Shown here one piece after another: positions 1-28,753 of a stretch of DNA of 30,318 bases. The notes under the pieces are model-generated. The model had not been told where the DNA came from and made no database searches. It saw nothing but the letters and a program-made list of their open reading frames with translations. This stretch comes from a virus: positions 1-30,318 of IMG/VR virus record IMGVR_UViG_3300006869_000060. One strand, given 5' to 3'. The translations under genes and the position numbers were made by a program. The first letter of the stretch is position 1; each line of letters starts with the position of its first letter.

Positions 1-2729
1 ACACCATCTTTACCAAGTGCGTTTAGATAATAATCGAATAACTTAGATTGTTCTTCTAAATTCTTAACTTCTTGGATTCTATCTTCTATTGTTTCTTTTT
101 GGTTTTGAAGAGCAGATACTTTACCATTTAATTTTAGAACATCTGAATTTATTCGTTTTAATTCATCTTTAACACCACTTTGTTTTTCTCGTACTGCGGT
201 TATTTGTTCTCGAATTTCTTTATTGGTTTTTATTTGTTCTTCGTTCTTGTAATACTCATCAATTAGTTGTTTTTGTTGTGTAACTTGAGTATCTAAACGA
301 ATTTCTTCTGTTTCTGTTGTTGATAACTTGTTAATAAGTTGAGAAATCTCTCTATCGAGTTTATCTTCTTTATCTTTAGCATCTTGATATTTTTCCCATT
401 CTTCTTCGTATTTGGATAAAGTTTCAATATCTAAATTAAAATGTAATTTCGATTCATTTTCTTTTTGTAATATAGATTCATATTCTTTTATATCAAAATC
501 TACCTTTTCTTTTTGTTCTAATATTGTTTGAGAGTTTTCTATACAGATATCACATTCTTCATTATATTTGTGAGAATCTAAATGTTCTTTTCTTTCATAC
601 AAAGAATCTAACTTTACTTGCAATTTATCTATCGTTGATTCTACATCTCTTAATCTATCTTTTGAATCTTTTAAATTTTTAATCCCAACTTCTAAATCTT
701 CTTCATCGAATTGGTCAAGGATTTCATCAAGGGTAATTTGTAATTCCTCACGATATTCGATTCTTTCTTGTATAGATTGTTTTGTGGTTTCAAGTTCTCC
801 CTTTTTGGATTCGAGGTTATTCAATCTTTTTTCTAACTCATCTATCGAAACACCACTATCCGCATTTAACTTTACGATTTTCTCGTTTAGTTTAATAATC
901 TGTCTATTAAGGATATCATCTTCTTCTTTCAGAGCCTTTTGAGACATCTCCAAAAGTTTGTATTCGTTTTTGTCGGTTTTAAGTTGTGTGTCGATTTCCG
1001 CTAACTTTGTCGTAAAATCATCGGACTTGAATTTTCTGATAAGTGTTGCATTATCCCTATTCTCATCACTTGCTCTTTGATACAACTTATCAAAGATATC
1101 TACTCCAATAAATTGTGAGAGTATCTCTTTTCTCTCACTTTGTGATTTATCAATAAAGAGTGCATTGTTTCCTTGTAGAGATAGTGCAGTTAAAACAAAA
1201 TCTTCAAACTTACCTAAATACTTTTCAATATTTTGGTTTGTATCTCTTCTTTGTTCTCCATTGAGTGAAGTAATGATACCACCACTTTCAGACCAGAAGT
1301 TTACATCTACCTTTACTGCAGTTTTCTTTCTAACATACTTAGCAGTTCTTTCAATGAAATAATCTACCCCATCTATCTCGAAATTAAACTTACAATAAAA
1401 CTTATCTTTACGATTGTTTAAAACGTTCTTTGCTACATTAGTACGAGAAGTTTTATCATAGATACAGAAAGAGAGTGCATCCCACATTGAGGATTTACCT
1501 GAAGCATTGGGAGCAAAGATACCCATGATTCCTTGTGCTTTATCAAATCTGATTAGGTTATCTTCACCATAAGAAAACATATTAGAGAACTCAAAGGTCT
1601 TGGGTGTCCATAAAATGTTACCAGCAATATCAGATGTATCTATTTGTGTATTGAGTTCTTTATTGATTTCTGCAATCTTATCCAATTCATCTGAATCCAA
1701 TAGATACTGACGTTCTAAGTAATCTCTAATTAAAGAGTTTTGGAATGTTTCATCTTTAACATCACCAACGATGTTTTTGTTTACCTTAGTGTTGGTTTTT
1801 AATTGACCTATGGTATCTGTTCTTGTAACCGTAACTTCTGCAACTTTAAATAACTTTTTAAGTTCGGTGATACATCGTTTCATATCACTTGCTTCAGTAT
1901 TAGTAAACCTTAACCTTAATCTAGGGAACTTTGGAAGTTTAGTACCAACTTCATCATATACCCATTGTGGTATTTCACCATCAACAACATCAACTGTTAG
2001 AAATCCATAATCATTATGGATATGGTGTTCAGTAAAGGTGCGAGTGGGTACATCCCATAATAAGTAACCATGATTTTCGAGTAGTTCTCCATGATTCTGT
2101 TGAATCATTGAACCCGCATAGGCAACCCACTCATAACCTTCACCAAAAGTTTGTCGTTTGTGTATATCTCCTAAAAGGGCCATATCAAATCCATCAAACA
2201 TATCCACTTGGAATGAGTTGGATGATACGGTATAACCAATATCGGTCTGTGCTTTGTTTACTGGTCCATGGAATAAAACAATTTTGTTTTCTCCTTCTAT
2301 ATCATTTCCCTTGGGCCAGTTTTCTTTGTCATCAAGAATGGAGTAGACAACAAAAGTAAGGTTATGAATATGATAAGTGCCAGTATCTCTAAGATAATGA
2401 ATCCTATCATTTTTAAGGTTGTCAATAATCGGTGTAAGAACATCTAATCTGTGTGAGTTATTTAAGTTACAATCGTGATTACCTGTGATTAACACAGTTT
2501 CTCTAAGTTTAGAGCACTCAGTTAGAAACCAAGAGATTTCTTGTACGAGTTCTGGTGACATCTCTGTTTTAGCATGAGCAATATCACCCGCTATATAAAT
2601 GATAGAATCTTCTATCTTATCTTCTTTAACTTGTTTGAGGAACTTTTTGAATACTAGTCTATATTCTTTGTGCCTTTGGAGATTTCGAATGTGTAAATCT
2701 GCAAGATGGTAAATCTTGTTTATTATCAT
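1..2729 (-). CDS. Fused Mre11-Rad50 (gp47-gp46 / SbcD-SbcC) recombination nuclease-ATPase, 3' end off the left edge
   Basis: One uninterrupted frame of 909 codons starts at ATG 2729 and is still open at base 1. I checked it triplet by triplet and found no stop. Residues 1 to about 335 are an Mre11/SbcD calcineurin-like nuclease: DLH (11-13), GDIAH (48-52), GNHD (83-86), H154 and GDIH (187-190) supply the metal ligands. After a linker, a Rad50/SbcC N-terminal ATPase lobe begins near residue 371, with Walker A APNASGKSS (406-414, K412). A long Glu/Lys/Leu-rich coiled coil follows, with a zinc-hook CDIC motif at C726 and C729 and then the returning coil. The signature motif and Walker B should lie beyond the window. 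T4 makes these two subunits, which process double-strand ends for recombination-dependent replication, as separate proteins gp47 and gp46. No in-frame ATG lies just before the Rad50 lobe. The start overlaps the stop of the upstream SGNH gene (ATGA). Confidence 0.93.
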   Translation of the reverse strand, partial: MIINKIYHLADLHIRNLQRHKEYRLVFKKFLKQVKEDKIEDSIIYIAGDIAHAKTEMSPELVQEISWFLTECSKLRETVLITGNHDCNLNNSHRLDVLTPIIDNLKNDRIHYLRDTGTYHIHNLTFVVYSILDDKENWPKGNDIEGENKIVLFHGPVNKAQTDIGYTVSSNSFQVDMFDGFDMALLGDIHKRQTFGEGYEWVAYAGSMIQQNHGELLENHGYLLWDVPTRTFTEHHIHNDYGFLTVDVVDGEIPQWVYDEVGTKLPKFPRLRLRFTNTEASDMKRCITELKKLFKVAEVTVTRTDTIGQLKTNTKVNKNIVGDVKDETFQNSLIRDYLERQYLLDSDELDKIAEINKELNTQIDTSDIAGNILWTPKTFEFSNMFSYGEDNLIRFDKAQGIMGIFAPNASGKSSMWDALSFCIYDKTSRTNVAKNVLNNRKDKFYCKFNFEIDGVDYFIERTAKYVRKKTAVKVDVNFWSESGGIITSLNGEQRRDTNQNIEKYLGKFEDFVLTALSLQGNNALFIDKSQSERKEILSQFIGVDIFDKLYQRASDENRDNATLIRKFKSDDFTTKLAEIDTQLKTDKNEYKLLEMSQKALKEEDDILNRQIIKLNEKIVKLNADSGVSIDELEKRLNNLESKKGELETTKQSIQERIEYREELQITLDEILDQFDEEDLEVGIKNLKDSKDRLRDVESTIDKLQVKLDSLYERKEHLDSHKYNEECDICIENSQTILEQKEKVDFDIKEYESILQKENESKLHFNLDIETLSKYEEEWEKYQDAKDKEDKLDREISQLINKLSTTETEEIRLDTQVTQQKQLIDEYYKNEEQIKTNKEIREQITAVREKQSGVKDELKRINSDVLKLNGKVSALQNQKETIEDRIQEVKNLEEQSKLFDYYLNALGKDG

Positions 2730-3508
2730 AAAATATTATTTTTGTTGATGAACTTATATAATTCATCTGATATAATTCTATATCCTTCTTTATTTGGATG
2801 TTGTGTTGCTATTTCTTGGTAATTTTCTAATTTTTCCCAAATATCATTTCTTTTTAAAGTATTTAGAAATGTTCTAAAAGTTAAATTTCCATTACCAAAA
2901 TAGTTTTTATAATTTATTAAGTGAGTCTTATCATCTAATTTATTTACACCATCCACCATCAACTCTAATCCCTCTGACATAATATACTTTATCTTATAAT
3001 GAGAAAACATTTGTTGTAAAAAAATTATATAATTTTGATTTACTATGTTATAGTAGTTTTGTGAAAATAAATTAGTAACAAAATATTTTTTATAATTTGA
3101 TAAGAATTCATTAAAAGAACGAGAAACACCATGTTCATCATAACTATGATAAAATCTATCAGGTGTTTGTAATAAATGTTTAACTGACCAAGAAATCCAT
3201 TCTCCATCTGGTAAAAATGGAACATAATCTCGTAGAGAAGATGAAAACATTATACACACAAAATCAGAAGATGTGATATTACCAGACTCAACATCTTTTA
3301 TAATATCATTAAACATTTTTCTGTTAGAATTACCACTAATACCTTTATTTATAATCAAAGGTATTTCTAACTTATCTGCAAGAAGTTTTGGCCAAGAATG
3401 TTCATTTCTAAACTTTCTTTTTTCATTTGCAGATAAAGTTGATTCAATCGAAACATCAGCACCCTCTCCCTCTGTCCAAGAGCAACCATACGCAACTAAT
3501 CTATTCAT
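2726..3508 (-). CDS. SGNH/GDSL-hydrolase-like protein
   Basis: This 260-residue protein resembles the SGNH/GDSL esterase-lipase fold. The N-terminal block I is YGCSWTEG, with S10 as the presumed nucleophile. A glycine/asparagine block (KGISGNSN, around residue 55) and a C-terminal HPNKEGY block (H237) follow. The Asp that usually sits two or three residues before the catalytic His is not visible (ATQH), so activity is uncertain. There is no signal peptide or membrane segment. Family members remove acyl or acetyl groups from lipids and glycans; the substrate here is unknown. The gene is translationally coupled on both sides: its ATG overlaps the primase stop and its TGA overlaps the Mre11-Rad50 start. 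This is an odd place for a hydrolase and suggests co-expression with replication genes. Confidence 0.65.
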   Translation of the reverse strand: MNRLVAYGCSWTEGEGADVSIESTLSANEKRKFRNEHSWPKLLADKLEIPLIINKGISGNSNRKMFNDIIKDVESGNITSSDFVCIMFSSSLRDYVPFLPDGEWISWSVKHLLQTPDRFYHSYDEHGVSRSFNEFLSNYKKYFVTNLFSQNYYNIVNQNYIIFLQQMFSHYKIKYIMSEGLELMVDGVNKLDDKTHLINYKNYFGNGNLTFRTFLNTLKRNDIWEKLENYQEIATQHPNKEGYRIISDELYKFINKNNIL

Positions 3509-4446
3509 AACCCTTTTAATTTTTGTGATATAATATCACCGAATCCTGTTTGTTTTGATTCTTTTAGAATTGTATTAACTTGGGAGAATCCCATTTCACC
3601 AGCATCTTTATCTGATGGTTTTATGTTTCTTGTAGTGATTCCTTGATTTTGGAATTGCATAGTGTAATATAACGCTTGGTCTTGTGCATCCTCATCAAGT
3701 AAGATGTTGATACTTTTAACTTCCTTTTTATATATAGTATCGTTTAAAGTTTTTGGAATAAATTTACCAAGTAGAGGGATTGCATTTCTCTTCACAGCCA
3801 TTGCATCAAATACTCCCTCTACTAAGGTAATAGGTTCTTGCCAGTTTATTTGGTTTTCGAACATGATAACGTTTTTCGAAACTGGCGGATTCTTATACTT
3901 AAATTTTTCCTCATCGAATACAGAACGTGCGATGAAGTAATTGAGTCGATTATCGTTATCATAACTTGGAATAATAATACGATTGGCATAATGACCAGAA
4001 TCGCAATAACCAATGTTATAACGTTTGATATCCCCTTGAGTAATACCTCTCTTTCGTGCATACTCTTTCACCTTTCTGAACGTTGGGTTTAATCCCTTTG
4101 GTTCTTCTAATAGTGAACGAAACTCGTTAGGTAACCTTAACTCTACCTTTTCATCTTCGGTATTATTACTATATACAACATAATCATCACCGTAAATCTC
4201 GTATATCTTTTTTAACTTATGAGAATCAACGTGCAATCTTCTAAGTAAACTTTGGATTCGTTTTCCTTTGGAATCACAAACCCAACAGTGCCACTTTTGT
4301 GTCTGTATGTTTATCTGTAACTTTTTCTTGTGATGATGACAGAAAGGACAGTAATGTGCTTGTTCATCCCCTTTCATGGATGTACCTGGTCCTAAGACAT
4401 CATCTAAGATGTTTATAACTTGTTGTTTATCGTGATGTGCAAGCAT
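3505..4446 (-). CDS. 61: DNA primase (DnaG/T4 gp61 type)
   Basis: This 313-residue protein would make RNA primers for lagging-strand synthesis. A CHC2-like zinc ribbon is formed by C33-P-F-C36 and C54-W-V-C57, separated by a basic His/Lys stretch. The TOPRIM core is visible as LVEGVFDAMAV (about residues 203-213, with the catalytic Glu in VEG) and ILLDEDAQD (about 245-253, the acidic DxD pair). The length is close to T4 gp61 (about 340 residues), and there is no fused helicase domain, so a separate gp41-type helicase is expected elsewhere. Two Bacteroidota-type promoters lie directly upstream, and the gene heads a three-gene coupled operon with the SGNH protein and the Mre11-Rad50 fusion. Confidence 0.9.
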   Translation of the reverse strand: MLAHHDKQQVINILDDVLGPGTSMKGDEQAHYCPFCHHHKKKLQINIQTQKWHCWVCDSKGKRIQSLLRRLHVDSHKLKKIYEIYGDDYVVYSNNTEDEKVELRLPNEFRSLLEEPKGLNPTFRKVKEYARKRGITQGDIKRYNIGYCDSGHYANRIIIPSYDNDNRLNYFIARSVFDEEKFKYKNPPVSKNVIMFENQINWQEPITLVEGVFDAMAVKRNAIPLLGKFIPKTLNDTIYKKEVKSINILLDEDAQDQALYYTMQFQNQGITTRNIKPSDKDAGEMGFSQVNTILKESKQTGFGDIISQKLKGL

Positions 4447-4554: not shown

Positions 4555-4586
4555 CAAATATACGAAAAATTTTCCATTATTCCAAA
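4555..4586 (-). promoter_or_regulatory. Bacteroidota-type promoter, distal tandem copy before primase
   Basis: On the minus strand, TTTG (4583-4586) and TATATTTG (4555-4562) are separated by 20 nt, with the same TTCG immediately before the -7 box as in the other copies. The -33 box lies inside the last codons of the GIY-YIG gene. It lies 89 bp upstream of the proximal copy, so the primase operon has two start sites in tandem. The stretch between them is extremely AT-rich. Confidence 0.82.
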
Positions 4587-5068
4587 TCTTTTCGAAAAAA
4601 TTTTCCAAGAAGATTATCGTTTAGTGAATTTTCATCAGCAAGAACATTATGTGCAAACTGTTCTTGTAGTTCGTAATATGTAAGTGATTTTTTATTTGAA
4701 CAAAAATGAAGTATCTCTAATTTTAGTTGGTCATTGATATCATCTCTTCTATCTTCTTTAAGAGCTTTATCATTTTCGTGAAACCACATTCTTACTGTTC
4801 CATTGGATGAACGATATGTTTTCCAATCAGATTCTTTGGTAACCATTTCGTATTTTTTCATTCTCTTATCTTCAAGAGCAGCAATTTCTTTTTTACCGAA
4901 ATTTCTTTTACGAACTGAAACTACTTGTTTTTTTCCAATATAGTATTCATCAGTTTTACCATTTGTTATTTTGTAAATAAACCCAAATACATCTTCGGGC
5001 ATGTCTGATAATTCAGTTATTAGTTTTCCTTTATATGTCCATGTCATAGTTAAAAATTTTGAAATCAT
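4577..5068 (-). CDS. GIY-YIG endonuclease-like protein (Seg-like)
   Basis: This protein has up to 163 residues. The N-terminal half carries GFIYKIT (29-35) and EYYIGKK (41-47), the paired strands that define the GIY-YIG nuclease fold. DWKTYRSSN (81-89) and Y132-E133 are candidates for the downstream conserved block and the metal-binding Glu. T4 encodes several free-standing GIY-YIG (Seg) endonucleases, many of them homing enzymes; others act in repair or DNA degradation. I see no separate DNA-binding module. The start is uncertain: ATG 5068 overlaps the sulfotransferase gene by 38 nt, while a second in-frame ATG at 5047 shortens the overlap to 17 nt. The 3' end contains the -33 box of the distal primase promoter. 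Confidence 0.7.
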   Translation of the reverse strand: MISKFLTMTWTYKGKLITELSDMPEDVFGFIYKITNGKTDEYYIGKKQVVSVRKRNFGKKEIAALEDKRMKKYEMVTKESDWKTYRSSNGTVRMWFHENDKALKEDRRDDINDQLKLEILHFCSNKKSLTYYELQEQFAHNVLADENSLNDNLLGKFFRKDLE

Positions 5069-5600
5069 CTTCGTACCTTTCTCGTACCCAATCTTTCATC
5101 CACTCCTCTTGATACAAAAACTTATAATATTGTTCTTGATTTAAGTTTGGATGTCTATCATAAATTGGATTACGATTTAGGTGAGGAATTTGACTCGATA
5201 TATTTAATTTATCAAGTACATTTTTAAAATCGTTTATAAAATTTTCGTACCTACAAATGTACGATATATTTTGATTAAGTTCCTTACCGGTTTTTAAATA
5301 ATAACTTTGGGGAAGATATAATATATAATTCTTGTCTATCTCTTTTAAAAAATTAGAAAAGGGTATTTGTTGTGATTTTCTACATTCGTGATAATATGTA
5401 GAAGCTAATCTTGTAAAAGGATTTCTAACACAAGAAAATATATAATATCCATTTATATCAGATAATTTATTTATAGAATTGTGAGAATCCAACACTTCTG
5501 TATTTGGTTGAGTTCTAAGCACAGTAGATATTGTTGTTCCACCAGTTTTTGGTATATGAACAAACCCCCATTTGTTAAAATGATTGATTAATAAACTCAA
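5031..5600 (-). CDS. PAPS-dependent sulfotransferase family protein
   Basis: This protein of about 189 residues has the two cofactor loops of the sulfotransferase fold. FVHIPKTGGTT (13-23, K18) is the 5'-phosphosulfate loop, and SCVRNPFTRLASTYYHE (56-72, R59 and S67) is the 3'-phosphate loop. The pattern is closest to the carbohydrate sulfotransferase group (Sulfotransfer_2). It would move sulfate from PAPS to a sugar or other hydroxyl; the acceptor cannot be inferred. Host surface glycan and a virion or fibre glycan are both possible. The start codon chosen is TTG at 5600, because no ATG or GTG precedes the cofactor loop in frame after the upstream stop, so the N-terminus is tentative. It follows the 61-residue gene by 11 nt and probably belongs to the same late transcript. 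Confidence 0.8.
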   Translation of the reverse strand: MSLLINHFNKWGFVHIPKTGGTTISTVLRTQPNTEVLDSHNSINKLSDINGYYIFSCVRNPFTRLASTYYHECRKSQQIPFSNFLKEIDKNYILYLPQSYYLKTGKELNQNISYICRYENFINDFKNVLDKLNISSQIPHLNRNPIYDRHPNLNQEQYYKFLYQEEWMKDWVRERYEDDFKIFNYDMDI

Positions 5601-5828: not shown

Positions 5829-6959
5829 CTAAGTATCAAAACGAACAATAAAGTTCACATCATAATCTGGTAAATTCTTAATTGGTTGAGGTAATTTAGC
5901 TACCGCAATCATATTACCTTCGTTATCATATAACCCAATAGTTGTTACAAACGGAGCTAAATATGAACCAGTTGGGTCTGTAATTTTATAATTATCATAA
6001 TCATCCCAAGAGCCAGTATTAGAACCATATGAACCATCATAAGATGTTTTTTGTGATATATCTAAAACTTCTTTAATTTTAACTGTTTTAGCAGGTGATA
6101 CATTTGTAATTGCGGTTGTAGTAAAATCATACGAACCACTAAGTGTAACATCAACAGCAGATGGGTTTTGTGAGAAATTAAATTCGCCTGATTTTGCTTC
6201 AAGTAAAACTTCGGTTTCGTGTATTGTTTGTGTTGCTCTATATTCTATTTCATAATTTTCTAAATCAACATCAAGTTCTGTAAATACAATTAAACCATCT
6301 GAGTAAAATATATTTCCAAAATCTTGTCTTGGAAATTGCAAACTACCAAACTGAAGTTCAGCAGTAAAAGTAATTGTATCATTTTCAAAATCAATAATAG
6401 ATATAAATTCAGTATCAGTAGAAGAACCATAGGTCAAAATTGCAGCACCTGTTTCCAAATCAATTGAAGTAACTGTTAAAATGACATCATTACCATCTAT
6501 CGATAAAGTCAATGTTCCATTTTCAACATCTAAACTTGTTATAACATAAGTTGGAGAAGAACTTGTCAATCTACCATCACCACTATCTATATATGTAATG
6601 TTTCTATCTGTATCTGTAATGTCTAAAGAACCTGGTTTGATTCTCTCACCAAATTTTGATTGATTTATTTTTATTACATAAATAGTATCACCAAATTCTC
6701 GTTCTTCCGCAAATGTACGATTTTTATTAGTTAAACCATAATTGTTTAATAAACCATTATCAGTATAATATTTTTTTTCAATTGATTTATAAATCAAATG
6801 AACATATACACCTTCATCTTTAGTGAATGTATCGGAATCAAACACCCCATCCTCAGAATATGCCTTTATTACCGGATAAACTGATTGGTCTGCTGTAAAT
6901 CTCTTATAGACTTTAAAACTCCTATGAGATATATTTGATTTTGGTATTGATTTTAACAT
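5829..6959 (-). CDS. Virion structural protein, paralogue of the next upstream gene
   Basis: This 376-residue, beta-rich protein has no catalytic motif. Three blocks align with the 403-residue neighbour: DTIYVIKINQSKFGERIKPG (91-110), GEFNFSQNPSA (258-268) and the C-terminal TTIGLYDNEGNMIAVAKLPQP (339-359). The two genes are therefore diverged duplicates. A central stretch (about 141-200) holds three related strands (SLDVENGTLTL, SIDLETGAAIL, IIDFENDTITF) that the neighbour lacks. The product is probably a tail, baseplate or head decoration protein; the exact T4 counterpart is not recognisable. The gene has its own TATTTATA box 16 nt before the start and sits just after a terminator, so it is transcribed separately from its paralogue. 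Confidence 0.75.
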   Translation of the reverse strand: MLKSIPKSNISHRSFKVYKRFTADQSVYPVIKAYSEDGVFDSDTFTKDEGVYVHLIYKSIEKKYYTDNGLLNNYGLTNKNRTFAEEREFGDTIYVIKINQSKFGERIKPGSLDITDTDRNITYIDSGDGRLTSSSPTYVITSLDVENGTLTLSIDGNDVILTVTSIDLETGAAILTYGSSTDTEFISIIDFENDTITFTAELQFGSLQFPRQDFGNIFYSDGLIVFTELDVDLENYEIEYRATQTIHETEVLLEAKSGEFNFSQNPSAVDVTLSGSYDFTTTAITNVSPAKTVKIKEVLDISQKTSYDGSYGSNTGSWDDYDNYKITDPTGSYLAPFVTTIGLYDNEGNMIAVAKLPQPIKNLPDYDVNFIVRFDT

Positions 6960-6974
6960 ACGATAATTCCTCTA

Positions 6975-6982
6975 TATAAATA
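6975..6982 (-). promoter_or_regulatory. Putative late promoter box TATTTATA
   Basis: The minus strand reads CATATATTTATATAG, 16 nt upstream of ATG 6959, with AGAGGAAT as the ribosome site between. It lies 9 nt past the terminator at 6991-7016, forming a compact terminator-promoter unit. Confidence 0.62.
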
Positions 6983-6990
6983 TATGGAAA

Positions 6991-7016
6991 CAAAAAACCC
7001 CACCGAAGTGGGGTTG
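6991..7016 (-). terminator. Intrinsic terminator after the 403-residue structural gene
   Basis: On the minus strand, AACCCCAC, loop TTCG and GTGGGGTT form a perfect 8-bp stem with a stable tetraloop, followed by a T-rich tract. It starts about 19 nt after the stop at 7035. Confidence 0.9.
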
Positions 7017-7034
7017 TTCATAGGTTAAGTTAGA

Positions 7035-8246
7035 TTAAAAATCAAGTTTTACTTTGATTAATACTTCTTTATCAAATGATTTAGCAATTGGTTGTGAAGT
7101 TTTAGCTACCGCGATAAGTTCATTTGCATCAGAATAAAGTCCTACCGTTGTGATGAAAGTTTTTGGGTCTTTCTCAAAAGTAGATTCTGCAAATGTTCCA
7201 TCCGAACCTGTTACGAATGAGGGGTTATTTGAATAATTAAATTCTCTGTTTGTTGCTCTTACAAAATAATGAGATGTAGAAACATTTTCAGTTCTACGAG
7301 CTTCAAATCCTGGATTGGTAGATGAACCCGCTCCTAATTTAATAGAATTCCATAGTAATTTATGGTTTTCTTGTTCAACAGTTACACTATCCGAAGGTGA
7401 AAGTTCAGAACCAACTACATTAGATATAGCGGCTGGGTTAAGTACGATAAGACCTTGGTCTGGATAGAACAATCCAAATCCTTGTCCGTTAGAAGCAGTT
7501 GCAGTATTAACAGTTGCAGCATTTTCAGTTCCTAAGTTAAGAGAACCACTTACCACATTAAACACTCTACCAGCTTTACCAACCGTATCATCGAATTTCT
7601 TACCACTATCATCAATGAAATAAGAAACACCATTAGAACCACTTAAACAAAGTGTCCAGTTTCCTGCATCCATTTTTTCTTTGTATCTTGCTCGAGCAAC
7701 ATTGATTACATAGATGGCATCCGAATCATGAGTTCCCGCTGCAGAAGATGAGAAAAATGTAAATTGAGAATCATCTTGTTCTAATAAAATTTGTTTGTAT
7801 TGTGCGTAAGTTGCTTTTGTAGCCACTGTTGAATTATCATTATTAGCTAATGATACCGAACCACTACCCAATCTATGTCCATATGCAACTGCGAATTGTA
7901 CTGATGAAGTTTCTGCGGTATTATAAACATTATAGTAATAATCTCCACTTGCAGCGGATACTTGAGCAGATGAAGTATAGAAAGTAGTTAAACTACCAGT
8001 ATCTCCACTCCACAAACCAGTAGTTACCACTTCAACTTTTCCAGTTACTTGGTCAAATTCACCAAATCTTTTATAGATTCCTTGTGTTACTGAACCACCC
8101 TGAGTGGCTAATTTATCACCACCAGTCAAATAGTTATTGATAATTTGACTTAATTGTTCAGAAGTGAGGTTACCTTGATTAGCTGATAAATAATTAGCTA
8201 ATTCGGTAGATAAATTTACTCCTGCTTGTCCTGTTATTTGTGCCAT
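7035..8246 (-). CDS. Virion structural protein, paralogue of the next downstream gene
   Basis: This 403-residue protein is Ser/Thr/Gly-rich and beta-rich. It shares with the 376-residue neighbour a DAIYVINVARARYKEKMDAG block, NREFNYSNNPSF, and a C-terminal TTVGLYSDANELIAVAKTSQP module (about 366-386). The C-terminal module looks like one seen in structural proteins of other T4-like phages. No enzyme motif is visible. It is likely a major late virion component; which T4 protein it replaces is unknown. Its ATG is preceded by AAGAGGAAC. No TATTTATA box is present here, so it is probably cotranscribed with the 209-residue gene 19 nt upstream. A strong terminator follows. Confidence 0.75.
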   Translation of the reverse strand: MAQITGQAGVNLSTELANYLSANQGNLTSEQLSQIINNYLTGGDKLATQGGSVTQGIYKRFGEFDQVTGKVEVVTTGLWSGDTGSLTTFYTSSAQVSAASGDYYYNVYNTAETSSVQFAVAYGHRLGSGSVSLANNDNSTVATKATYAQYKQILLEQDDSQFTFFSSSAAGTHDSDAIYVINVARARYKEKMDAGNWTLCLSGSNGVSYFIDDSGKKFDDTVGKAGRVFNVVSGSLNLGTENAATVNTATASNGQGFGLFYPDQGLIVLNPAAISNVVGSELSPSDSVTVEQENHKLLWNSIKLGAGSSTNPGFEARRTENVSTSHYFVRATNREFNYSNNPSFVTGSDGTFAESTFEKDPKTFITTVGLYSDANELIAVAKTSQPIAKSFDKEVLIKVKLDF

Positions 8247-8265
8247 CTTTTATTGTTCCTCTTTA

Positions 8266-8895
8266 TTATGTTGGTTGTACATAGGTTACCGTAACAGGAA
8301 TAGTTTGTGAACCACCTGTTTCGTTACCATATACAGTCAATGTTGTCTTAATAGTAGTAGTAATATTTGGGTTAGGAATAAATGTAAATGTAAGACCCGT
8401 TTCTACTGCTGCAGTTGTTGTAATTTCATCTCCTAAGAATACTGGTACAGTTCCACTTCCAGCTCCCGCTCCTTCACCAATTACAGAACCAGCGTTTTTG
8501 TTTGAAAGAACTACTGTATATCCTGCTTGTGAATTTCCACTTGGGGATGTAGTTGGTGATAAAGCAACTTGACCTGAAGTTTGGTTCACCGAAATATTCG
8601 GAACACCAAATTCTACTTTTGGAATCTTCTTTGTTCCTTTTGGTAAAGTTACCAATTTGTATTTTAATACTTGAGTTTCATCTGGTGAAGCTTCTGTGAT
8701 TGGGATTGCTCTAATTGCTGCATCATAATATGCAGAACCTTTTGGATGTGCTGGTTCGTATAGAGTGTAATCTACCTCATCATCACCCAAAGCAAACTTT
8801 GTAATGTTTAAACCTTGACCGGCTGCAAGTTTTTCTCTACCCTTTTTAGTAAGAATTGCATCTACGGTAATTGTTGAATTATCTAAATAAGCCAT
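8266..8895 (-). CDS. Tail or fibre-like structural protein
   Basis: This 209-residue protein begins with a conserved-looking N-terminal module: ILTKKGREKLAAGQ (14-27), then ITKFALGDDEVDYTLYEPAHP (31-51). That module resembles the N-terminal attachment part of structural proteins in T4-like phages. The rest is Thr/Gly/Ser-rich beta sequence with no catalytic residues. It probably mounts a small fibre or decoration domain on the tail or baseplate. The start is fixed by AAGAGGAAT and by the TATTTATA box 26 nt upstream. It is probably cotranscribed with the 403-residue gene. Confidence 0.7.
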   Translation of the reverse strand: MAYLDNSTITVDAILTKKGREKLAAGQGLNITKFALGDDEVDYTLYEPAHPKGSAYYDAAIRAIPITEASPDETQVLKYKLVTLPKGTKKIPKVEFGVPNISVNQTSGQVALSPTTSPSGNSQAGYTVVLSNKNAGSVIGEGAGAGSGTVPVFLGDEITTTAAVETGLTFTFIPNPNITTTIKTTLTVYGNETGGSQTIPVTVTYVQPT

Positions 8896-8920
8896 AATTT
8901 ATTCCTCTTGTTATTCAATA

Positions 8921-8928
8921 TATAAATA
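8921..8928 (-). promoter_or_regulatory. Putative late promoter box TATTTATA
   Basis: The minus strand reads TTATATTTATATATTG, 26 nt upstream of ATG 8895, in the 65-bp gap after the 1630-residue gene. No -33 TTTG is present. Confidence 0.6.
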
Positions 8929-8960
8929 TAACATTTATAATTTTTAATTATTTTCTTTTA

Positions 8961-11900
8961 TTAATCTACCTCTAAAATTGGTTCACCACTACCTCTACCA
9001 CTATCATTAACTCTAAGTGTGTTAGGATTAGTAGTAAATGTTTGTACAGGTGAACCACCATCTAAGGTAGTTCCGCTTGTTTGTTTTGAACCATTAAAGA
9101 ATGAATTTTCTAATCCACTTGTTAAATCTTCTACTATTCTATAATGAGTTGAAAATGTTCCGTTTAAAGGTGTAACTTCTACAATATTACCACCTGATGT
9201 AATATCAGTTGATTCAGAACCATTTGAATCTAAAAATGGTAGTATAGTAACTTTTGTTCTATATTTTTCTACTCCAACAACATCATAAGCAACTTGGTCA
9301 TTCGAACCAGTTGTTTTAGGCCAACCACTAACTTGTTGTCTTTCGTATTCAGTATAAGATTCTTTTACTTTAAAAACTTTAATTCTATCTTTAACTATAT
9401 TCCCATATAAATCAAATCGTGTTCTAATAGCATGAGAACCACTACCATATAAACCAAATCCAGCCACGGCTAAATCTTCAGGACCGAATCCACCTACTTG
9501 TTGGAATGTAGTTGAGTCATAGAATGCATTTGCAGAGCCAGTTAGTTTGGCATCTATAAATATCTCAAATCCTCCCATAGTAGAGCCACTATTTCTTGTA
9601 ATTACTCCACTTAAAGAAGTATCATCAAAAGATGAGTATGTTCCATCATAGTTTAAAATTTCAGTAGAAACTCTCGTATCATCCGATTCACTAATGTGTC
9701 CATCATAGAATGGAGTATCTACATTAAGTTTAGTATCTTCAGAAGCAGATACTAAAGCTAAGTATTGTGGATTGTCTGATGTTACTATTGTATCTTCAGT
9801 AGTGTTAATAACAGTTTCATGGTAATTTTCATCACCTGTTGGTTTTGTCCATTTAGTTTTACTTCTCTCTAAGATATGTGGTTCAAAAAGTAAACCTTTT
9901 GCAACTTTAGCTCTTGCTGGTACAAGGGATTCGAGTTGGTCAAACAACCCTCGTTCTATATAACGAACTAACTGAACATATTCATTGAAATTTAAATTAA
10001 ATCTTTCGAAATAATAATTTCTAAATGTTTCCAATGAAGAATATGTATCATTATAATTGTCAGATGGGTCTCCTATGTAATCATCAATATTTAAAGGACC
10101 TACTGATTTTAGGATATCCATATTAATCTCTTTAATTGGAGAGAAAAATAATCCTAATTTATCAGAATCAATTGGTGATTTATCAAATGACTTTTTGGTT
10201 GAACGAGAACGATATGATAAATCAATACTTGATGTAGCCGATAATACATTTGTTTCTCCCAATTCATATTGAGACTCAAATCTTAATTTGTTATTAAGAT
10301 TAAATCCACTTGAAGGAACTTTTGCGGTTACTGTTCTATCATATGGAGTATATTGATATGGATACATAGCAACACTATCAAATCCACTTGCAATTGAACC
10401 AGTACTATATGTTCTTGTTATTGATACGTTTTTAATTTCAGTATCAGTATTTCTGTTTTTTGGATATTCGAAGTCATGTCTTAAAATTAAATCTTCGGTT
10501 GACGCGGAAGGGGATGTACCATCAATAGCATCAGGTAACAAAGTATGGTTGTCAATATTTACCTCATCTAATGGAATTTTCCATAAACGAAATTCATCAA
10601 CCGAACCATTAAATGTACTTCCACCAATTTTAATTTCACTACCACTTGTCCACGCTTTTGTTGTTGCGGATAATGTAGTTGATACCTCGTTTCTAATTCT
10701 TTCTTGGAATGCCTCTTTTGCATAAAGAGTAAATTCATCACCACTACTACCAGTTACTCTATTTACAACAATTTGAGTGTACTCATCATTGAAGAATGGT
10801 ATTGGTTGAGTTGAAGAGGAAACAGAACCAACAGTTAGTTGGAACGTAGCCAATGAGCCGGTATCCTTTAAAACATCTAATGACCAATTAGAACCACTAA
10901 TTATTTGTTGGTCTTGTCTTTCTTGAGTATTTAATCTTATTTCAACAGAGTTTGGATAATCCGATGTATGTGTTTTCCAAGGTATCGTTATGGAAGCAGA
11001 CCCACTTATATTAATAGATGCAGTTCTATCCTCATAAGTGAAATTACTTGTACCGGATTGAGTAACGTCTTTTGGTCCACCGAACTCCATTACCGTTAGT
11101 AATGAAGCAGGAACACCATAACAAGACATTAAAGCATGAAGTGCTCTTTTTGTACCCTTGTGTTTTAAAAGGTATGGTAAGTTATTTAGAATTCTTCTCC
11201 AAACCTGATTTTGTCTATCTTTTCCACTTGTTAATCTTTCTACCGAAGAATCACTCGATTTACCAAAAGCATATTCCCACAAGGCCTGTGATTGAACACC
11301 TAAATCAGCATCCCAACCAAGAGATTCTAACATTTGGTATATAAACTCATCTTTAATTCCAAATTTTTGTTTATGTTCAATTTTTTTGCTTTTAGAAAAT
11401 TCTTTAGTATATAACCAAAGAATATCAAAATGCTGACCTATCATGTCAAAGAACAGAACAAACTCTTGACCAACATCTTCGTTTTGAACATGAGATGGTA
11501 AGTTATTTACTAGTCTTGATGTGTTGTATTTATCATAATTTTGAGCAGAACTGTAAATCCCCTCATACCAAGCGGTAGAATCAGAATCCGTAGAAGATGA
11601 TAGTGTTATCTGACCTGCACCTGGATATGTAAGACCATCAACAGATGAACTTGTGTACAACCATTTTTCAAATGCATCAAAACCAAGTGTTACTTCATTT
11701 TTCTTTCGTTCTATTCTATTTTTTTCGTTTAATAAAGATATAGAAGATGTGAAATCAGAACCAGATGTAATCAATTCTAATTTATTATCATAAAACTCAA
11801 TAAGTTCTAATTTATACCAAAAGTTTTGTACCCTTTCCGATGCAGATGAATATTTTACAAAATTATTCCATGCATAAGTTTCACCCGATTTTTGGTAAAC

Positions 11901-23107: not shown

Positions 23108-23129
23108 GATTTTTATACATTATGTTGTA

Positions 23130-23137
23130 TATAAATA
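23130..23137 (-). promoter_or_regulatory. Putative late promoter box TATTTATA
   Basis: The minus strand reads GTATATTTATATAC, a near-palindrome, 23 nt upstream of ATG 23107 and 8 nt past the terminator at 23145-23174. Confidence 0.62.
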
Positions 23138-23144
23138 TACTGAA

Positions 23145-23174
23145 TAAAAAAACCTCACCGAAGTGAGGTTTTTA
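23145..23174 (-). terminator. Intrinsic terminator after the two-helix membrane gene
   Basis: On the minus strand, AACCTCAC, TTCG and GTGAGGTT form an 8-bp stem with a TTCG loop, followed by seven T. The plus strand also has five T after the stem, so it could work in both directions. The stem resembles that of the terminator at 6991-7016. Confidence 0.9.
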
Positions 23175-23201
23175 TCCAACGCGCTTATGGAAGTTGAGTC
23201 C

Positions 23202-24185: not shown

Positions 24186-25892
24186 TTATAAAATCTTTTT
24201 CTTTATAATATAATTGTGAATTACTAAAGTATCCATTTCACAATCTAAGAAAGTTTCGATTGCAGTTCTTGGGTCTAAAACCATTGTTTGGTCTTTTAAA
24301 TTGAATGAAGTGTTGAGAACTATTGGATATCCATTATCTTTGTGAAGTTGTGTGAGAAGTTCGTAGATTCTCTTATGTTGTCTTTTGGTAACTGATTGAA
24401 TTCTTGCAGAACCATCAACATGAGTGATTGCTGGTAATTTAGATTGATGCTCTTCTTTTACCTTTACCACTTGATTCATATAAGGAACTTCTTTTTTATA
24501 ATCAAAGTATTTTGTTTGTTCTTCTAACTTTACCATTGGAGCAAAGGGTCTGAATCCTTCTCTCTTTTTAATTACTCGATTTACCCTTGATTTCATTTGT
24601 GGGTCACATGGATTTGCTAAAATAGAACGATTTCCTAATGCACGAGAACCAAATTCCATTTTACCTTCAAACCAACCTACTACATTTCCTTCTGTGATTT
24701 CTTTTGAGATTAAAGGAATTATTTCTGAATGTGATTTCTTTTCGAACCAAACATCTACATCCATTTCTTCTAAAGCCTTTTCTACATCTTCGTTTTTGTA
24801 GTGAGGACCAAGATAAGGAGTTGTGTTATCTACCTTTTGAGTTCCCCCCATTTCGAAATAAACATGAAGTGCGGCACCGATAGCAGAACCAGCATCAGAT
24901 GGAGCAGGTGGAATCCAAACATTCTTAAAGTTTGATTTCTCTAATATCTTTCCATTTGCAGTTCCATTGTATGCACATCCACCACTCAAACATAAATTGT
25001 TAGATGAACGAACTGCGAATAATCTATTTACTAATCTAAAGAATAGAAATTCGTATTCGTGTTGTAGAGTTGCTGATAAATCTTTGTGAGGTTGATTTAA
25101 ATTATCTTCAGGTAACCGATTTGGAATACCCAAGAGTTGTCCCAACTTCTCGTTAAACATATGAGTATCTGACCAATCATATGTAAAGTATTCCATATTC
25201 AGTTCGAATCCACCATCATCTGTGAGGGTATATAGTTTCCTAAATTTATTAAGAAACGTTTTTGGGTCACCATATGGAGCCAAACCCATAACTTTGTACT
25301 CACCTTCGTTTGGTTTGAAACCTAAGAAAGCAGTAAAGGCTGAATATAACATCCCAAGTGAATGTGGGAAGTTAATCTGTTGTATTTTTGAAATCTTATT
25401 TCCTTCACCATACCAAAGAGTGGTTGTTTCCCATTCACCAACTCCATCTACCGAAAGAATAGATGCTCTATCATATGGAGATGTGTAAAAGGAATATGAT
25501 GCGTGTGAAAGGTGGTGGTCTGAATAAAATATATTTACGTTGGTATGTGTAATACCATAAATTTGTTTTTCAAAAGTATCGTATTTTATTTTATTTCTTT
25601 TTAGAATTTTACCACGATTAAAATATTGAGATATAGGTCCTCGTTTAAGAGATTTTTGTATTCTATCTAATTTGGTTTTGGGATTATCATAGAAAGCAAC
25701 TGATTCTATATCCTCACCTTCTATTTTGAATTCTTTGTATAACCATTGGATTGTATTAATAGGAAAAGATGAATCGTGTTTTATACCAGTAAATCTTTCT
25801 TCTTCTACCGCTCCTAAAACTTTTCCATCTTTAATCAGTGCAGCTGCACTATCGTGATATCCACACGATATTCCTAAAATATAACCTTTCAT
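24186..25892 (-). CDS. NodU/CmcH-type carbamoyltransferase
   Basis: This 568-residue protein has the typical length and motifs of the NodU/CmcH/TobZ family. The N-terminal ASKHA-like half starts GISCGYHDSAAALIKDG (7-23); the metal-binding DHHLSHA is at 125-131; and SVDGVGEWETT (147-157) is present. The nucleotide-binding LSGGCAYNG is at 302-310. The C-terminal half carries GWFEGKMEFGSRALGNRS (406-423) and FRPFAPMV. These enzymes transfer a carbamoyl group from carbamoyl phosphate, through carbamoyl-AMP, to a hydroxyl on a small molecule or sugar. Some phage members have been reported to carbamoylate 5-hydroxymethylcytosine in DNA. Whether this one modifies phage DNA or a glycan cannot be told from sequence. 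It is last in the operon with gp55. The start has no clear ribosome site. Confidence 0.92.
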   Translation of the reverse strand: MKGYILGISCGYHDSAAALIKDGKVLGAVEEERFTGIKHDSSFPINTIQWLYKEFKIEGEDIESVAFYDNPKTKLDRIQKSLKRGPISQYFNRGKILKRNKIKYDTFEKQIYGITHTNVNIFYSDHHLSHASYSFYTSPYDRASILSVDGVGEWETTTLWYGEGNKISKIQQINFPHSLGMLYSAFTAFLGFKPNEGEYKVMGLAPYGDPKTFLNKFRKLYTLTDDGGFELNMEYFTYDWSDTHMFNEKLGQLLGIPNRLPEDNLNQPHKDLSATLQHEYEFLFFRLVNRLFAVRSSNNLCLSGGCAYNGTANGKILEKSNFKNVWIPPAPSDAGSAIGAALHVYFEMGGTQKVDNTTPYLGPHYKNEDVEKALEEMDVDVWFEKKSHSEIIPLISKEITEGNVVGWFEGKMEFGSRALGNRSILANPCDPQMKSRVNRVIKKREGFRPFAPMVKLEEQTKYFDYKKEVPYMNQVVKVKEEHQSKLPAITHVDGSARIQSVTKRQHKRIYELLTQLHKDNGYPIVLNTSFNLKDQTMVLDPRTAIETFLDCEMDTLVIHNYIIKKKIL

Positions 25893-28138: not shown

Positions 28139-28753
28139 TTAGAGGATTTCTGCTCCTTGTGAAAGTAAAGGTTGTGCCTTTTTATACTTCATAAATTCAG
28201 TATCTCCATTAGCAAGTTTTACCATTACTCTATCGTTTCTACCATACTTTTTAGTTGATACAACTGTTGTTGTATATCTTCTGATTTTATCGGTGATTAG
28301 AACCCCATTAAGGTGGTCTAGTTCGTGTTGTGCACAAACACACTCTAATAACCCCTCATCTGAAAAGAATTCATTAGAATCCTTCCAAGGTTCTTTTTGG
28401 TCTGGTGAAAAGATAACAGTTCCTAAATTATCACACTCAACTGTAAATGATTTATGTCTTACAGTCTTGACAGGTTTCTTCATTGTTTTATCTAATGATA
28501 AACATTGTTCTACATATGCAACGGTATCTTTTGATACTTCTGTAACGATTGGGTTTATTAGTACCAAAGGTTCTTTTACATTGATTACACAGGCACGAAC
28601 ATCTAAACCTATTTGGTTTGCAGATAATCCTATACCACCATGTTTTGTAAGTTCTGTTAATAGAGTTGTTGATATTTCATCAATCTGTTCTTGAGTCATT
28701 GGTTTTGGTTCCAATGGTTTTCTCAACTTATTTGGGTCTTTAATTAGCCTCAT
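28139..28753 (-). CDS. def: Peptide deformylase
   Basis: This 204-residue protein has the three conserved deformylase motifs: GIGLSANQIG (40-49; the usual A is S in GLSANQ), EQCLSL (82-87; the Cys C84 is the metal ligand, and the usual EGCLS Gly is Gln) and QHELDHLNG (142-150; H143 and H147 bind metal, E144 is catalytic). It would remove N-formyl groups from new proteins using Fe2+ or Zn2+. A C-terminal extension of about 45 residues follows the core. Phage deformylases are known from cyanophages and others, and may speed maturation of phage proteins. The start ATG 28753 overlaps the preceding gene by 14 nt, so translation is likely coupled. Confidence 0.95.
   Translation of the reverse strand: MRLIKDPNKLRKPLEPKPMTQEQIDEISTTLLTELTKHGGIGLSANQIGLDVRACVINVKEPLVLINPIVTEVSKDTVAYVEQCLSLDKTMKKPVKTVRHKSFTVECDNLGTVIFSPDQKEPWKDSNEFFSDEGLLECVCAQHELDHLNGVLITDKIRRYTTTVVSTKKYGRNDRVMVKLANGDTEFMKYKKAQPLLSQGAEIL

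Follow-up and report, generated by a model that had tools for sequence, protein, structure and literature searches.

A probable single-chain Mre11-Rad50 nuclease encoded by a fused gene in a large clade of phages broadly related to T4

A gene at the left edge of the window (the whole stretch of DNA analysed, a 30,318-base virus fragment, IMGVR_UViG_3300006869_000060, whose source is described as a marine virus of bacteria) very probably encodes a single-chain Mre11-Rad50 (SbcD-SbcC) end-processing nuclease, the phage's only one, which would serve recombination-dependent replication. This functional reading is drawn from sequence, and its observed basis is the fusion itself, the order of its domains, the conserved catalytic and ATPase residues, the signs of selection and, in relatives, the single copy of the gene together with a recombinase. 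Joined Mre11-Rad50 proteins are not new as a kind, having been described in 2011 (PMC3175470). New here are full-length phage genes, a fixed primase neighbourhood, an active-site variant found throughout the clade, and a clade in which no cleanly divided member was found.

From its ATG, the minus strand of the window (translation of 2729-1) reads 909 codons without a stop and runs off the window edge. The fused gene thus occupies 3..2729 (minus strand), the first 909 of 1052 codons, and continues past the left edge. All 909 residues are matched at 100% identity by a 74.6-kb viral contig, L001, in which the frame reaches its stop after 1052 aa and contains the ABC signature SGMER and the Walker B sequence LVIDEG, both outside the window. 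The original prediction of a single frame of at least 909 codons, Mre11 then Rad50, is therefore borne out, and L001 has supplied the signature, Walker B and stop that it expected from a leftward extension; the order of nuclease then ATPase within a phage protein is supported as well. Along this one frame, Pfam Metallophos is followed by AAA_23 and PHROG SbcD by SbcC. Because two domain families occur in order and 80 relatives at 49-100% identity were found in the first scan, the frame is far beyond chance.

The frame can be divided into a series of domains, all on the minus strand, whose boundaries are approximate since the confidence of the AlphaFold model (a monomer of moderate quality, mean pLDDT 73.4, pTM 0.39) is moderate. 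Residues 1-240 (2010..2729) form the Mre11/SbcD calcineurin-like phosphoesterase domain (Metallophos 3.1e-08; PHROG SbcD 9e-28). The Mre11 capping region follows at residues 241-326 (1752..2009), an approximate boundary based on predicted strands and helices and on Foldseek matches to T. maritima Mre11 (3tho_B/3qg5). Next is the Mre11 helix-loop-helix, residues 327-360 (1650..1751), with predicted helices at 327-342 and 346-360, which is expected by homology to hold the Rad50 coiled coil at its base. An inter-domain linker of about 14 residues, 361-374 (1608..1649), separates this element from the first Rad50 strand and is of low confidence at 367-372. The N-terminal ATPase lobe of Rad50/SbcC spans residues 375-580 (990..1607; AAA_23 5.1e-09; PHROG SbcC 5.9e-54 for the Rad50 half) and contains Walker A, PNASGKS (1491..1511), whose K412 is present in 149/149 loci. 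Residues 581-909 (3..989) comprise predicted helices of the coiled coil and the zinc hook, a CxxC at 543..554 in which both C726 and C729 are kept in 142/142 loci reaching the hook. For the whole protein the coiled coil is predicted at approximately 544-905, followed by the C lobe to 1052. Between them, the window and L001 contain every mark of a Rad50/SbcC ATPase: Walker A, signature, Walker B, coiled coil and CxxC zinc hook.

Foldseek matches both halves to Mre11-Rad50 complexes, including full-length T. maritima Mre11 and fungal Rad50; the low global TM-scores are what a monomer with a long coiled coil should give. A linker of 9-12 residues has been calculated for the gap of about 28 A between the domains (PMC3175470), and the roughly 14 residues that follow the helix-loop-helix in the model are compatible with it. 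Thus, the protein has the capping region, the helix-loop-helix and the linker of about 9-12 residues or more of the fusions described by Yoshida and colleagues in 2011.

The residues of the phosphoesterase are D11, H13, D49, H52, N84, H85, D86, H154, D188 and H190, and each is retained in all aligned loci or in all minus one. Every residue named in the original prediction (DLH, GDIAH, GNHD, H154, GDIH, K412 and C726/C729) lies exactly where it was placed. The Mre11/SbcD metal motifs DxH, GD, GNH[D/E], H and [H/D]xH are all present, with the strict GHxH replaced by GDIH. Across the fusion clade the site reads GDxxH (H52) and GDxH (D188), in contrast to the GDxxD and GHxH of T4, cyanophage S-SKS1 and E. 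coli. In SPO1-type phages the first motif is GDxxH, as in the fusion clade, but the second is still GHxH, and a T5-like phage pairs GDxxD with GDxH. The same two substitutions, GDxxH and an Asp for P. furiosus His206, are reported for Mimivirus R555 (PMC3175470). Since H52 and D188 match the residues reported for R555, placement with the R555/GOS group is supported, a kinship judged from the residues given in that paper. Because D188 occupies a metal-ligand position (P. furiosus His206), activity and polarity may differ from those of the Mre11 enzymes that have been studied.

Loci were collected from scans of viral contigs, genome contigs and phage records. Among 225 loci, a total that excludes one interrupted gene and the copy in the window itself and counts some contigs twice, 122 distinct fused proteins are closed and full-length, at 988-1250 aa; the search with the joined protein that had been proposed as a check thus finds the fusion many times over. 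No cleanly divided locus was found when an unfused clade member was sought with three distant queries (L147, L213 and L084). The only broken cases are LR756508, which carries an extra ORF, and L210, frameshifted close to where its contig stops; L221 is too short for a verdict. A simple count-based estimate from synonymous and nonsynonymous counts gives dN/dS of about 0.06 for the phosphoesterase, 0.16 for the linker (346-378), 0.18 for the coiled coil and 0.05 for the C lobe. Every region, linker included, is under purifying selection. In one contig, represented by both L070 and L121, an in-frame loss removes about 57 residues (approximately 264-320 of the fusion) from the Mre11 capping region and the fusion stays open; this may be a real deletion or an assembly fault.

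The surroundings of the gene are also conserved. A DnaG-type primase gene (3505..4446, minus strand; PHROG DNA primase 4.1e-45) is the upstream neighbour, and a primase lies upstream of the fusion in 158/160 loci with enough flank. In 66/109 distinct cases it directly abuts the fusion, with a gap of at most 50 bases, and in 2 it was not seen, while inserted genes of more than 500 bases separate the two in 40 of about 107-109 distinct cases. These variable gap lengths indicate that the space between primase and fusion is a variable cargo slot. In the window this slot holds a 260-aa ORF (2726..3508, minus strand) with a weak resemblance to GDSL lipases, which is present in 20/160 loci. Its stop overlaps the start of the fusion (ATGA), suggesting translational coupling. 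Upstream of the primase, at 4577-5068, is a SegE-like GIY-YIG protein found in 113/160 loci, a family that PHROG labels "NAD synthetase", probably a mislabel.

A profile of the fusion has one match in 13/14 relatives' records, and the remaining record has two, one for each half of an interrupted gene. A second Mre11-Rad50 pair was sought elsewhere in long relatives and none was found; the only extra metallophosphatases are other calcineurin-like phosphoesterase genes, which some of these relatives bear. The T4-type capsid family Gp23 is present in 11/14 of the records and a RecA-family protein in 9/14, and absence elsewhere among the 14 may reflect incomplete contigs. Neither Gp23 nor a RecA/UvsX-type recombinase was found in the 74.6-kb twin L001, itself a fragment. 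The neighbours of the fusion in the window include gp6- and gp25-type baseplate genes.

A mechanism can be proposed from these features. Two chains would dimerise through their Mre11 phosphoesterases and their ATP-bound Rad50 heads, so that two identical polypeptides would make one M2R2 machine. Each Mre11 would dock through its helix-loop-helix onto the base of a Rad50 coiled coil, either in cis on its own chain or in trans on the partner's, and the short linker would span the gap between the domains. Such an enzyme would recognise DNA ends, and ATP would open the nuclease site. The presumed end resection would leave 3' single-stranded tails for a phage RecA/UvsX-type recombinase, and these tails would feed recombination-dependent replication and repair, much as T4 gp46/gp47 do (reviewed in PMC3175470). 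The fused chain may also be cleaved after translation.

Separate Mre11 and Rad50 proteins already act 1:1 as an M2R2 complex. The fixed stoichiometry once put forward as an effect of the fusion is thus little gain, and tethering, also proposed, and co-inheritance are more plausible effects. Given that the separate proteins assemble 1:1 in any case, the likely benefit is guaranteed co-expression, faster assembly and co-inheritance, as has been raised before (PMC3175470).

The window is a metagenomic virus fragment, and such contigs do contain errors, as the apparent frameshift of L210 near residue 463 of the reference attests. Two genes might therefore have been joined artificially through a missing stop or an indel, by an assembly artefact or read-through error. 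However, one frame spans Mre11, the junction and Rad50 in 148/149 loci from the first two rounds, at 26-100% identity and from many samples, and in an isolate genome, that of Microcystis phage Mel-JY01, the fusion is likewise annotated as a single protein of 1066 aa (WWT39521.1). Independent contigs and an isolate genome together refute assembly error, whose probability is close to nil. A different question is whether a free Rad50 is also made by internal initiation, giving fused and separate forms side by side. In alignments with split enzymes, W374, a Trp in 149/149 loci, aligns with the initiator Met of SPO1-type SbcC or with its immediate neighbour, and the fusion therefore contains the whole Rad50 lobe. 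The window has no ATG immediately before this lobe, in agreement with the original reading of the junction, and a search of 71 distinct full-length relatives for a conserved start codon before it found none. The one conserved internal ATG, M384, is present in 69/71 distinct relatives and could in principle serve as such a start. But M384 lies about 10 residues inside the Rad50 lobe, and since split enzymes begin at about W374, its product would lose the first beta strand (375-381); moreover, residues 350-383 have no in-frame ATG in 58/71. With its sole conserved ATG in the region of the first strand, internal initiation is rejected as a source of free Rad50, and we consider it highly improbable.

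The function of the single-chain nuclease could also be viewed otherwise, as degradation or exclusion turned mainly on host or rival DNA rather than phage recombination. The T4 record assigns both recombination and host-DNA degradation to gp46/gp47, and the Asp at a metal-ligand position of the active site is unusual. Against this, the fusion stands next to a replication primase in nearly all relatives, is present in single copy and co-occurs with a RecA-type recombinase, a combination that fits a core replication role. A nuclease directed mainly at host or rival DNA is thus unlikely, although the two roles are not exclusive, and an end-processing enzyme for recombination-dependent replication is the reading we prefer.

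The relation of the phage to T4 appears to be a broad one. FastTree trees were built from the Mre11 half, the Rad50 half and the two combined; in each, all fused proteins form one clade apart from the split T4-, T5- and SPO1-type enzymes, with support of 0.98-1.0, though the long branches and lone cellular outgroup leave the precise root uncertain. The fusion is thus not an ortholog of T4 gp47/gp46 in the sense of two genes grouping with T4, as it is one gene and its clade is apart from both T4 and S-SKS1. The description of the phage as T4-like appears to hold broadly, in that most long relatives carry Gp23 and a RecA-family recombinase, but it does not extend to the fusion clade or the primase. 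The fusion-adjacent primase matches those of Flavobacterium phage immuto and Microcystis phage Mel-JY01, and then those of SPO1/Staphylococcus-type phages. Nor is there support for the proposed origin by loss of an intergenic stop: T4 has two genes (46.1 and 46.2) between 47 and 46, and S-SKS1 likewise has two. In Bacillus phages the two genes are about 105-114 bp apart. The simplest reading is a single origin of the fusion, no later than the base of this diverse clade of broadly T4-related phages, with the fused form retained ever since. A more tentative extension, which we hold to be possible rather than probable, is that a single ancient fusion founded a large, mostly uncultured clade with a broad kinship to T4 in which a single-chain enzyme, changed from His to Asp at a metal ligand, fully replaced the two-protein form, with altered chemistry or regulation. 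If true, the Mre11-Rad50 cycle could be studied in a model enzyme made of one polypeptide. The main text of the Far-T4 paper (PMC4360716) does not mention gp46, gp47 or the fusion.

Several known systems resemble the fusion in part. Yoshida, Claverie and Ogata (2011; PMC3175470) reported Mre11/Rad50 fusions in Mimivirus R555, bacteria, plasmids, eukaryotes and Bacillus phage 0305phi8-36, together with abundant marine GOS sequences with phage-type primases (SPO1, Twort, A511), and proposed that many homologues are phage-borne; from the short marine reads, full-length fusions were mostly unconfirmable. R555 and the GOS sequences share an N-terminal Mre11 and a C-terminal Rad50 in one protein, and the GOS scaffolds also have the primase neighbour. 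However, R555 is a protein of 1351 aa with a long coiled coil from a giant virus of amoebae, whereas the window protein has 1052 aa, a shorter coil and a phage origin. The fusion of 0305phi8-36, a phage SbcD-SbcC known since 2011, is by description in PMC3175470 without the capping/helix-loop-helix region and one P-loop segment. The split enzymes of T4 (gp47/gp46) and of Synechococcus phage S-SKS1 have homologous halves in the same order and presumably the same role, but they are two proteins with two small genes between them, have the classical GDxxD and GHxH, and belong to a separate clade. SPO1-type (Herelleviridae) SbcD/SbcC (SPO1 gp21.3 and gp21.9) has GDxxH (H52) and a homologous primase nearby, and its SbcD, unlike that of T4, matches the Mre11 half of the fusion by tblastn. 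It is encoded by two genes, however, with GHxH rather than GDxH and a longer insert just before Walker A of SbcC.

Among annotated phages, the closest relatives are Mel-JY01 and LR756508, joined by Flavobacterium phage immuto where primase and baseplate are concerned. Mel-JY01 has the same fusion in the same order with the primase neighbour, at 35-39% identity over the full length, but its protein is labelled only "AAA domain containing protein". Catalogues that seek gp46 and gp47 separately can mislabel the fusion, as this copy shows. Two uncultured huge phages carry the fusion in the same order: LR756501, in which it is longer and more distant (26%) and has S in place of H52, and LR756508, which also has the primase neighbour but in which the fusion is interrupted by an extra ORF. 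What had been inferred in 2011 from short marine reads is now seen as full-length genes with genome context, and far from being a sporadic oddity, the fusion is the norm in a large phage clade, common to hundreds of related viruses. At about 1050 residues, a single-chain Mre11-Rad50 would also be convenient for structural and single-molecule work.

Further observations concern individual genomes. In LR756508 (484 kb), an ORF (6671-7588) interrupts the Mre11 domain of the fused gene (5950-10175) immediately behind GDIHKRQ; this ORF matches HNH-endonuclease profiles and has zinc-finger-like cysteines. A search for a group I intron there gave no Rfam match at E 0.1, and the interruption may be an intron, an intein-like insert or a plain splitting of the gene. 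Phage immuto (NC_055915), related through its primase (40.7%) and baseplate (37.7%), has no detectable Mre11-Rad50; directly after its primase, at 9908-10690, lies a Cas4/PD-(D/E)XK-type exonuclease, an apparent swap of the end-processing nuclease for an unrelated one in the same place. In the window, a sub-threshold Rfam match to STnc370 at 23110-23180 (plus strand; 38.7 bits vs a cut-off of 54) is probably due to chance. The window also bears auxiliary genes, namely a Nol-like carbamoyltransferase, a peptide deformylase and a sulfotransferase-like ORF (coordinates listed as 24186-25892, 28139-28753 and 5031-5600).
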